A stretch of DNA of 64,000 nt from Faecalicoccus acidiformans (lineage in GTDB: Bacteria > Bacillota_I > Bacilli_A > Erysipelotrichales > Erysipelotrichaceae): the NCBI RefSeq assembly GCF_014202635.1, contig NZ_JACHHD010000004.1, positions 1-64,000 of the forward strand, read 5' to 3'. Position numbers and translations under genes: made by a program. The notes under the pieces were generated by a model. It saw only the letters and a list, made by a program, of their open reading frames with translations. It had not been told where the DNA came from and made no database searches. Positions 50,234 to 53,420 of the stretch are shown here, in pieces. How positions within the stretch are numbered: the stretch's first letter is position 1; every line of letters begins with the position of its first letter.

Positions 50234-50271
50234 AACACCTCTATAGAATAAAGACTAAAGAGGTGTTTTTT
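50234..50271 (+). terminator. plsY terminator covering the comK ribosome site
   Basis: AACACCTCT (50234-50242) pairs perfectly with AGAGGTGTT (50259-50267), followed by TTTT up to the comK ATG at 50272. The 3' arm includes the only ribosome site of comK (AGAGGTG, 50259-50265). Read-through RNA from plsY would thus hide this site. Confidence 0.7.
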
Positions 50272-50688
50272 ATGTCAGATAATTATCTATATTATGATTA
50301 TGCCACCAGTTCAGTCTGTAAAGTAAAAGAAGATATCCAAGAATATGTACCTGATTCCAGTATGCATCATTTCTTAGATCATCTTTGTATCCTTCATGGC
50401 TCCACACTGGAAGGAAGACGAGATGCTTTTCGTATATTGATGAATAAATCTCGCTTTATCCCTATTGTTGTCAATCAAAACCCTCACGAAATCTATTTTC
50501 CAATCAAATCCTTGAAAGACCCTACGAATACATGGATCTGTTATGAAAACATTGAAGGTTTCATCGAGCACAAAAAAACATGTACGATCGTTTTTAAAGA
50601 TCATACATGTTTAGAATGTGAACATCCTCAACGAATCAAAGATAATATACGAGCAATTCGAAGATATATCAAAACTTTAGATCTTTAA
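50272..50688 (+). CDS. comK: ComK-family competence transcription factor
   Basis: A 138-residue protein matching the central ComK region: GSTLEGRRDAFRILMNKSRF and IPIVVN correspond to the GRK...K-PI-V block, and EIYFPIKSLKDPTNTWI corresponds to the FFPT-S...WI block. The N-terminal part is shorter and the C-terminal tail of Bacillus ComK is missing, closer to short ComK paralogues. ComK activates DNA-uptake genes; comEA and comEC are present in this window. Start ATG 50272 with AGAGGTG. It converges on ridA with a 4-bp overlap of stop regions, and the ridA-side terminator lies within its 3' part. Confidence 0.8.
   Translation: MSDNYLYYDYATSSVCKVKEDIQEYVPDSSMHHFLDHLCILHGSTLEGRRDAFRILMNKSRFIPIVVNQNPHEIYFPIKSLKDPTNTWICYENIEGFIEHKKTCTIVFKDHTCLECEHPQRIKDNIRAIRRYIKTLDL
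50572..50612 (-). terminator. Terminator of rnjB-ftsK-ridA, inside comK
   Basis: On the minus strand AAACATGTA (50612-50604) pairs with TACATGTTT (50584-50576), with an inner GATC/GATC pairing and a G-U pair, and the strand continues with seven T residues. On the plus strand no T run follows. It lies about 75 bp past the ridA stop, within comK codons. Confidence 0.7.
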
Positions 50689-51116
50689 TTTTGACAATCT
50701 CCATCACAATGAGAACATCCTCCAGAACAACTGTGTTCCTTTTGGGCTTTCTCATAGCGTAATGTATTTACACCCAAGGCTTCTATACATACTAGAGCAT
50801 CGTTCTCTAGTCGATCCGCTTGTATCAATGTACAAGAAGGAAATGGAGGCTCTATAAACTTTGAAAATACATCTAAAAACTCTTTTTTGTCATCTAGATT
50901 TTTTAAATATACGGTAAATTTAACAAGATGATGCATTTTTAAACCAAAGGGTTCAACAGCATCCATTAAAGCGTTAGCACAGGATATCGTTTGTTCAGCA
51001 ATAGTATTTCCCTTTCCGGTTTGACCGCTGACATAGACAAAATCTCCCAGACTAACAGCTTTTGAAACACAGGATCCTTCCTCTTGGATTCCGCTGGAAT
51101 TTAAAAAGATATTCAT
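50685..51116 (-). CDS. RidA-like protein with Cys-rich tail
   Basis: A 143-residue YjgF/YER057c/UK114-fold protein. VSLGDFVYVSGQTG, VKFTVYLKNLDD and CIEALGV match the family. True RidA enzymes hydrolyse reactive imines using an Arg in FPARS; here the aligned segment is FPSCTLIQA, so Arg is replaced by Cys95. The C-terminus has an unusual tail SCSGGCSHCDGDCQN with Cys at 130, 134, 137 and 141, suited to metal binding. It probably has a different activity from RidA. It is the last gene of rnjB-ftsK-ridA, with AGGAG upstream of ATG 51116. Confidence 0.8.
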   Translation of the reverse strand: MNIFLNSSGIQEEGSCVSKAVSLGDFVYVSGQTGKGNTIAEQTISCANALMDAVEPFGLKMHHLVKFTVYLKNLDDKKEFLDVFSKFIEPPFPSCTLIQADRLENDALVCIEALGVNTLRYEKAQKEHSCSGGCSHCDGDCQN

Positions 51117-51128
51117 TTCAGTATTCTC

Positions 51129-53420
51129 CTATTCTTCATCTGAATCTTCTAAAGTATTTTTTACAAGAATGGCTCTAGGTTTTGAACCGTTGGCCGGGCC
51201 GATAATGCCCTGCTCTTCCAATGCATCAATCAATCGAGCAGCTCGAGAATATCCAACTGAAAATTTTCTCTGAATCAATGAAGTGCTGGCTCTTCGTGAC
51301 TGGATCACAAAACTTTTAACTTGTTCATAGAGCGGATCTAAACACTCGCCAGAGACTTCGCCTCCCTGGTTTTGTAGATCCTTAAGTTGTATAAACGCAT
51401 CATCATAATGTGGACATGCTTGCGTTTTAACATATTGAGCAATTCGATTGACTTCTTCATCATGGACAAAAACTCCTTGGATTCGTTTTGGCGTGCTTTC
51501 CCCATTAGGAAGATACAACATATCCCCATACCCGAGCAAGCGTTCTGCTCCTGCTTGATCCAAAATCGTCCTGGAATCTGTTGCCGAACTGACCGCAAAG
51601 GCAATTCGCGAAGGAATGTTCGCTTTAATAACACCTGTGATCACATCTACACTTGGTCTCTGTGTCGCAACAATCAAATGAATGCCGGCAGCTCTAGCCA
51701 ATTGTGTAATTCGCTGGATACTGGACTCAACTTCTTTAGCTGCGACCAACATTAAATCGGCTAATTCATCAATAATAATCACAATTCTAGGCAAAGGGCG
51801 AAGGCTTTCACCAGGATGATTTAGAACTTGCTCATTATAAGACTGAATATTACGAACACCTAAACGGCCAAACAGATCGTATCGATGTTCCATAATATTG
51901 ACAATAACTTTCAGCGCTTTATTTGCCAAGTCTCCATCAGTAATAACGGGCGCCAGCAAATGAGGTACATCATTATATGGCGTAAATTCAACCTTTTTAG
52001 GATCAATCAGCACTAATTTTACTTCATCGGGACGAGTGCGCATCAGAAAAGAAGAGATGATTGAATTGACACAAACAGATTTACCAGAGCCTGTGGCTCC
52101 TGCAATCAAAAGATGTGGCATTTTATCCAATTCACCGTAAACTGAGTTTCCCATCAAATCCTTGCCCAAACAAAATAGAAGTTTCTTTTCATTCATAGAT
52201 TTTGGAATGTTGCATAACAGCTCTTTGATCTGCACTTCCGTCTTCTCAACATTCGGTATCTCAATCCCGACTGCGTTTTTACCTGGAATCGGAGCCTCAA
52301 TGCGGATATCTTTAGCAGCAAGCGCCATTTTGATATCGTATTGAAGGTTGCTGATTTTATTGACTCGAACGCCAGTCTCGGGGCGAACTTCAAATTTTGT
52401 GACGCTTGGTCCAATATGGACTTGAACCAGGGTCGCTTCAACTCCAAATTCATGAAGGATCGAAATCAACTTCTGTCCTTGAATTTTGGCAGTTTGTGAA
52501 TTTACATTGTTCTTTTTTGAACGTTTCAAGATATCGTTTAAAATCGTGAACCGTGGCAAGCGATAATTCGCATAGGCTTCTTCTTCATTTGCGATATATT
52601 CTGCGGGTTCCGATTGTATGGGCTTTGAACCAACATCAAAGTCTTCTTCTTCTTTGGCATCCATGACCGTATGATAGGCCGGTTCCAGAACTTCGGGTTC
52701 GGCTTCTGGCAGAGTCAATTCAGGATCGATATCAAGAAATATTGAGGATGGATCCGTTGAATCTGTCTGTTGATGTTTGTTCTTTCGTTTCGGTGCAACT
52801 TTAGCCTGTTTCGGTTTTTCTTTAGAACTCGATTGCCGATTTCGAATTGCCTGAACCATATGATCATAACCAAACAAGAAGATTGCGATCAAAAATAAAA
52901 AAATAAGAATTACATAACATCCAGTAGAATCAAACAAGCTGTGAAGCATCCCGACAATCAGAGCCCCTAATAAACCACAACGGGTAATGTTGACTCCTCG
53001 TATATATGCAAATAAATCACTGATGATGGATTGAAGCGCACTCCAGCTTTGTCCTTGTGTCAATTCATGGAGCCCCTGCAGCAATAACCAGCCGATCATT
53101 GCCAACAATATGGCAGTCCAATAACGTGTGTTGATTTTTCGAAAATCAAAACGAAAGAGATCCAGAACACAGAAAAGCGTGACCATCAATAAAAAGAGTA
53201 TTGTCAGATTTCCGATAAAAAGTGAGATCAAATGAAAGATGATCTTTCCTACAACACCAAATTGAAACAAAGCAATGATGCTCAAAGCAACGCAAGAAAG
53301 GAGAAGACACACGCGGACAAGATTTGTGTCGTTCCTGGCTGCCTGTGTCTTAGTCTTTTTATTTCTTCTTGTTGATTTTGAGCGGGTGTTTGATTTACTT
53401 TTTGATTTGGCTGCCGCCAT
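51129..53420 (-). CDS. ftsK: DNA translocase FtsK/SpoIIIE
   Basis: A 763-residue septal DNA pump. A basic N-terminus, four membrane helices (about residues 35-185) and an acidic linker precede the motor: LLIAGATGSGKSVCVNSIIS (Walker A), IVIIIDELADLM (Walker B), then the C-terminal gamma winged helix (SLIQRKFSVGYSRAARLIDA) that reads orienting sequences. It lies between rnjB and the ridA-like gene; the rnjB-spoIIIE neighbourhood is also seen in Bacillus. Good ribosome site AAGGAG. Confidence 0.96.
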   Translation of the reverse strand: MAAAKSKSKSNTRSKSTRRNKKTKTQAARNDTNLVRVCLLLSCVALSIIALFQFGVVGKIIFHLISLFIGNLTILFLLMVTLFCVLDLFRFDFRKINTRYWTAILLAMIGWLLLQGLHELTQGQSWSALQSIISDLFAYIRGVNITRCGLLGALIVGMLHSLFDSTGCYVILIFLFLIAIFLFGYDHMVQAIRNRQSSSKEKPKQAKVAPKRKNKHQQTDSTDPSSIFLDIDPELTLPEAEPEVLEPAYHTVMDAKEEEDFDVGSKPIQSEPAEYIANEEEAYANYRLPRFTILNDILKRSKKNNVNSQTAKIQGQKLISILHEFGVEATLVQVHIGPSVTKFEVRPETGVRVNKISNLQYDIKMALAAKDIRIEAPIPGKNAVGIEIPNVEKTEVQIKELLCNIPKSMNEKKLLFCLGKDLMGNSVYGELDKMPHLLIAGATGSGKSVCVNSIISSFLMRTRPDEVKLVLIDPKKVEFTPYNDVPHLLAPVITDGDLANKALKVIVNIMEHRYDLFGRLGVRNIQSYNEQVLNHPGESLRPLPRIVIIIDELADLMLVAAKEVESSIQRITQLARAAGIHLIVATQRPSVDVITGVIKANIPSRIAFAVSSATDSRTILDQAGAERLLGYGDMLYLPNGESTPKRIQGVFVHDEEVNRIAQYVKTQACPHYDDAFIQLKDLQNQGGEVSGECLDPLYEQVKSFVIQSRRASTSLIQRKFSVGYSRAARLIDALEEQGIIGPANGSKPRAILVKNTLEDSDEE

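Follow-up and report, generated by a model that had tools for sequence, protein, structure and literature searches.

An arginine-less RidA-fold protein with a cysteine-rich tail in Faecalicoccus acidiformans and its relatives in the Erysipelotrichaceae

A small gene of Faecalicoccus acidiformans encodes a RidA-like protein with cysteine at the site of the catalytic arginine and a C-terminal tail holding four cysteines. The questions raised by this locus are what such a protein may still do and whether the replaced arginine and the tail belong to one device. In the window, i.e. the whole stretch of 64,000 nucleotides that was analysed, the gene and its surroundings are arranged as follows.

50263..50688, plus strand: ComK-like gene (PF06338), convergent with the RidA-like gene (open reading frame, Pfam, HMM)
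50685..51116, minus strand: RidA-fold protein of 143 amino acids, Arg-less and Cys-tailed (open reading frame, Pfam, alignment, model)
51126..51130, minus strand: Shine-Dalgarno-like AGGAG, overlapping the ftsK stop codon (by eye)
51129..53420, minus strand: gene directly upstream, presumably FtsK/SpoIIIE-like as named from its sequence (open reading frame, gene order)

A RidA-like protein had been assigned to 50685-51116 in the initial annotation and this was borne out: the open reading frame is real and its product matched the Rid superfamily profile PF01042 well above the Pfam cut-off (E 3.3e-14, 53.3 bits against 27.3). With TIGR00004, the NCBIfam model of the RidA subfamily, it scored 48.5 bits, below the cut-off of 106.25. 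The ATG start is preceded by AGGAG 9 nt upstream and lies 12 nt from the end of ftsK, and at the other end the RidA-like and ComK-like genes run into each other's stop codons, sharing 4 nt (50685-50688). The nearest named records among the matches listed were from an uncultured Faecalicoccus (90% identity) and from F. pleomorphus DSM 20574 (61%).

A Rid fold was predicted by AlphaFold for the single chain, with a mean pLDDT of 88.7, and the best solved match to the model in Foldseek was 1xrg (TM 0.73/0.84). The predicted fold, Ser30 and the LGDF-x-Y-x-S motif are shared with RidA (YjgF/YER057c/UK114, PF01042), but the protein lacks equivalents of Arg105, Tyr17, Asn88 and Glu120, has a loop deletion of 8 residues and adds an extra C-terminal helix with the Cys tail. 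The positions concerned (active-site residues of RidA in E. coli numbering, which was checked) are given below.

51069..51071, minus strand: Cys16, new in the Arg-less clade (86-row alignment)
51066..51068, minus strand: Val17, site of Tyr17 of RidA (86-row alignment)
50874..50876, minus strand: Leu81, site of Asn88 of RidA (86-row alignment)
50832..50834, minus strand: Cys95, site of the catalytic Arg105 of RidA (86-row alignment)
50787..50789, minus strand: Cys110, site of Glu120 of RidA (86-row alignment)
50730..50762, minus strand: extra C-terminal helix, residues 119-129, bearing the tail; family motif [DN]T-x2-[YHLF]-E (alignment, model)
50694..50729, minus strand: tail C130-x3-C134-x2-C137-x3-C141, predicted to be disordered (sequence, codon evidence, model)

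The alignment of 86 rows comprised the best 80 of 120 confirmed loci, the window protein and five untailed controls. The column of Cys95, which had been proposed as the catalytic arginine site, is indeed occupied by Arg in 68 rows, i.e. in 59/59 Arg-keeping tailed and 9/9 untailed proteins, and in the remaining 18, Arg-less rows by Cys (7), Met (5), Val (3), Leu, Ala or Ser (one each). Three further active-site positions with a replaced residue (Val17, Leu81 and Cys110 in the window protein) and a conserved Cys16 were found beyond that annotation. The site of Tyr17 holds Val or Ile in 18/18 Arg-less proteins against Tyr in 59/59 Arg-keeping tailed ones, that of Asn88 Leu in 18/18 against Asn in 59/59, and that of Glu120 Cys (10), Ala (4), Ser (3) or Glu (1) against Glu in 59/59. 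Cys16 is present in 17/18 Arg-less rows, where 58/59 Arg-keeping tailed rows have Pro. The Arg-less rows also have the loop deletion in common (11 residues against 17-19), and Arg120 is conserved in 18/18 of them.

Arg105 is described as the determinant of deaminase activity in the available parts of PMC5619798 and PMC4433059, and Tyr17, Asn88 and Glu120 are named as active-site positions in that of PMC5979572; the accessible text of PMC4960622 contained no match for active-site residue names. According to the excerpt of PMC4433059, alanine at Tyr17 or Glu120 of Salmonella enterica RidA had little effect, so the weight of the argument for inactivity rests on the arginine. With Cys95 for Arg105 and Val17, Leu81 and Cys110 at the other positions, the window protein differs from the RidA subfamily at every one of these sites. 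The sequence lends good support to the earlier claim that it is unable to act as an ordinary imine deaminase, Arg and three other active-site positions being gone, and this activity has very probably been lost. A similar expectation, no imine hydrolysis, applies to the Arg-less subfamilies Rid4-Rid7, whose roles were called completely unknown in a 2015 survey (PMC4433059, as excerpted). The loss of Arg seen here appears separate from theirs, as it lies beside or within the Cys-tailed, Arg-keeping RidA proteins of a single bacterial family, in a tree built without Rid4-7 sequences.

Another reaction in the same pocket, using Cys16, Cys95 and Cys110, would be suggested by the three cysteines that the window protein has at or beside active-site positions and by the retention of Ser30, Gln32, Lys66 and Thr68 in 18/18 Arg-less proteins. 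Cys95 occurs in only 7/18 of these and Cys110 in only 10/18, however, and apart from Cys16 no invariant new catalytic set is present, which makes a re-tooled enzyme very improbable.

The four-Cys tail of the annotation is real as well. Residues 132-143 have a pLDDT under 50 and are modelled as disordered. None of the 48 ORFs in the window that reach 150 amino acids has more than one Cys among its last 14 residues, and the binomial chance of at least four Cys in 14 residues is about 4e-5 per protein. More telling than these chance figures is conservation, the tail being encoded in 26/36 family genomes. A tail is present in 77/86 aligned homologues (best 80 of 120 loci with the window protein and controls), so that the proposed refutation, its absence from all orthologues, does not apply. 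Since 59 of these 77 proteins keep the full active site, and Cys95 occurs in 7/18 Arg-less proteins, a joint function of Cys95 and the tail was not supported; in the homologue search proposed for the pair, the tail proved widespread and Cys95 restricted to part of the Arg-less clade. The exact spacing of the four cysteines as a recurrent element of the genome was discarded: the DNA pattern was found six times and its reversed control also six times, hence the spacing alone means nothing.

The tail varies widely in length and spacing among homologues, and its Cys number ranges from 2 to 22 over the 77 tailed proteins. In the Arg-less proteins it holds four Cys in 10/18, three in 1/18 and two in 7/18, the last seven retaining a single CxxC. 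A close system for comparison is found in other Erysipelotrichaceae (Holdemania, Traorella, Longicatena, Dielma and others), whose Cys-tailed RidA keeps Arg. This RidA shares the helix motif and the Cys tail with the window protein and, like the latter, in most cases adjoins a ComK-like gene; its active site is full and its tail has 4 to 22 Cys, where the Arg-less form has 2 to 4. At three loci (L098, L112 and L126) the Rid tail is also rich in His, with 11 to 18 of these next to 9 to 14 Cys, and in one protein found twice (L137 and L050) it runs to about 134 residues, contains 22 Cys and has internal repeats.

Codon changes in 26 close pairs were counted separately for the tail cysteines (43 synonymous, 4 non-synonymous) and for the other tail codons (121 synonymous, 105 non-synonymous); the Fisher p of 4e-7 is nominal, as some sequences recur across pairs. 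Strong purifying selection acts on the tail cysteines. The tail as a product of chance or of a frameshift was ruled out by its conservation and by this codon evidence. The Arg-less genes as a whole have an intact open frame in 18/18 cases, and the dN/dS of Arg-less pairs was 0.014 (with dS near saturation), 0.031, 0.026 and 0.093, one more pair being saturated. Such low values indicate that the Arg-less proteins are maintained and not decaying. That the gene is a drifting remnant heading for loss, as the vanished active site, the reduction of the tail to two Cys in 7/18 and the clean absence of the gene from one genome (G004) might suggest, is hardly credible in view of these ratios (0.01-0.1) and the open frames.

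A further possibility is a thiol redox switch or holdase, in which the tail and Cys16, Cys47 and Cys110 would be open to disulphide formation or to oxidants, turning the protein into a stress-activated chaperone. The conserved tail cysteines would agree with it, as would the new Cys16 of 17/18 Arg-less rows and the cysteine that 15/18 have as residue 47 (the window protein has Ala47 and Cys46). On the other hand, the hosts are gut bacteria and probably anaerobes, and relatives have multi-Cys tails rich in Gly, Asp and His, which resemble metal-binding tails more than a switch of two cysteines. A precedent exists in E. coli RidA, which turns into a chaperone on N-chlorination, though the switch is named for N-chlorination and not for a Cys tail in the part of PMC4284807 available. 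A redox switch is a possibility that we consider unlikely.

In the sample of the class examined, the tail was found in one bacterial family only. Cys-tailed RidA is encoded in 26 of the 36 family genomes searched (G000-G035), ten with the Arg-less and 16 with the Arg-keeping form. In the sister family, 22/24 genomes gave a match and none of these extended past query residue 121. Across 296 genomes drawn from the class, matches to profile A1 extended into the tail (model position at least 143 in an open frame, E up to 1e-10) in 19/27 genomes of the same family and in 0/93 other genomes with a match. Among named genomes, the tail is encoded at 76 of the best 80 of 120 confirmed loci, the four untailed ones being from Clostridia, Evansella, Spirochaetales and Paenibacillus.

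In a tree of 81 rows, a branch with support 100/100 separated the 18 Arg-less rows from the rest, and another (100/97) did so for the nine untailed rows. The tree has few columns, long branches (L077 and others) and a root drawn at the midpoint only, and where exactly the Arg-less clade belongs is uncertain. When the root is set among the untailed proteins, the Cys-rich tail is ancestral and arose before a single loss of Arg. The Arg-less clade has the helix motif, the tail and the ComK neighbour in common with the other tailed RidA proteins, which also supports common descent. One Arg-less member of the gut clade (L077) comes from a metagenome-assembled record titled Erysipelothrix rhusiopathiae, a label which may be wrong.

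The genome of F. acidiformans has two PF01042 genes, the one in the window and an untailed one with Arg. A second PF01042 protein was likewise found in 9/10 Arg-less genomes, the one without (G016) being 68% complete. All nine second copies keep Arg as judged by eye; eight are RidA-like and one (G014) is a longer, divergent Rid. More than one Rid was present in 4/16 Arg-keeping genomes, a contrast with p 0.004, uncorrected for the Arg-less genomes being one clade. The second Rid in most Arg-less genomes would fit a division of labour. Elsewhere, a 404-aa open frame (L192, G012:C33) seems by eye to join an aldose-epimerase-like domain to a RidA domain.

In 10/10 Arg-less genomes the tailed rid comes after an ftsK homologue and is convergent with a comK-like gene, with an extra ORF between at one locus (L039), and most Arg-less loci are presumably also flanked by plsY, parE and parC homologues. 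Using an HMM built from 17 ComK-like neighbours, whose source genomes are among the loci scanned, a ComK-like gene was found downstream at 60/76 tailed loci (best 80 of 120) in two opposite arrangements. At Arg-less loci it is convergent in 16/17, the 17th locus ending 203 bases past the gene; at Arg-keeping loci it is co-directional in 44/59, 42 of these within 400 bases. It was missing downstream in 15/59 Arg-keeping and 4/4 untailed loci by the same scan. PF06338 itself matched in 23/36 family genomes. Natural competence as the function of this neighbour is doubtful, as no match to ComEC (PF03772) was obtained in the F. acidiformans genome (99.7% complete); DprA (PF02481) is present. No metal-transport or Fe-S gene was recognised next door in the gene orders, where most neighbours were named from their sequences.

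The pairing raises the possibility that the tailed Rid binds the ComK-like protein or its degradation machinery, its cysteines giving a metal- or disulphide-dependent contact. The contrast of tailed with untailed loci and the occurrence of the pair in two genomic places and orientations speak for such a partnership. Both arrangements may, however, derive from one ancestral adjacency; the 15 Arg-keeping loci mentioned do without the gene, one genome (G004) has comK without a tailed Rid, and two (G015 and G022) hold the pair on separate contigs. We regard this explanation as improbable, somewhat more so than the redox switch. At the locus in G004 (L208, G004:C10:13000-24000), ftsK adjoins the comK-like gene and the tailed Rid gene is cleanly absent between them, from which it follows that the gene is dispensable there.

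The reading that we prefer is a catalytically dead, tailed RidA serving as a trimeric scaffold with metal- or cluster-binding tails, and we give it an even chance of being right. The fold, the loss of four active-site residues, the single origin of this loss, the shared tail, the selection, the backup Rid and the ComK pairing were computed; the trimeric state, the binding of metal or cluster, the role and any contact with ComK we infer. In the ancestor of most Erysipelotrichaceae, a RidA lineage would have gained a Cys-rich C-terminal tail, one gene then serving both the deaminase and the tail jobs. In the clade of Faecalicoccus, Faecalitalea, Holdemanella, Catenisphaera, Ileibacterium and Allobaculum, imine deamination would have been left to the second, untailed Rid, and the tailed copy would have lost its active site and retained the function of its tail. 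The RidA fold is normally a trimer and could display three flexible Cys tails, which may bind thiophilic metal (an ion of iron, zinc or copper) or else an iron-sulphur cluster; what is bound would probably be handed over or sensed, possibly with the ComK-like regulator next door. A bolder version, which we hold to be unlikely, is that RidA in most members of the family combines an imine deaminase with a metallothionein-like tail tied to the ComK-like regulator, and that in one clade the enzyme half is dead and the tail half has become a metal- or thiol-responsive control module for the regulator.

Among the literature titles and abstract openings listed, with one topic only partly covered, none described such a protein. 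Within this one family, the Arg-less form can be compared with tailed relatives that keep Arg and with a separate Rid that has it, and the tail cysteines provide a handle, and the ComK-like gene a neighbour, for probing the roles of Arg-less Rid proteins. If true, the scaffold reading would illustrate in one case how an enzyme can become a metal or thiol protein without catalysis.

Whether the tail binds a metal or cluster, as had also been suggested in the annotation, is judged about evenly balanced. Binding is the leading guess because of a weak likeness to Feo motifs and the Cys/His-rich tails of relatives, and it is helped by the purifying selection on the tail cysteines. Against the scaffold reading speak the wide variation of the tail in length and spacing, the lone CxxC of 7/18 Arg-less proteins, the dispensability of the gene in G004 and the gene orders, in which no metal-transport or Fe-S neighbour was recognised. 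The window tail matched PF12669 (FeoB_associated) with 17.6 bits and E 0.0048, below the cut-off of 27 bits and over profile positions 22-43 only; it was the best of a set in which 5/48 members matched at E up to 0.05, and the likeness may be due to composition alone. FeoB-associated proteins and FeoC likewise have a short motif of four Cys at the C-terminus, in which the first spacings are similar. FeoB-associated proteins are, however, membrane-anchored and not of the Rid fold, whereas in the window protein a predicted Rid fold precedes the tail in place of an N-terminal membrane helix; FeoC is a winged-helix protein, not a Rid fold. According to the portion of PMC8749426 available, the Cys motif of PF12669 is commonly associated with iron binding, its last spacing is 6-8 against 3 in the window tail, and the Cx4Cx2Cx5C of E. 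coli FeoC forms a [4Fe-4S] cluster. F. acidiformans has a FeoB-associated Cys-rich protein of its own (L147, G000:C1:25890-26018), which ends in CTGDCSSCGSQSCH, a tail resembling that of the Rid protein.
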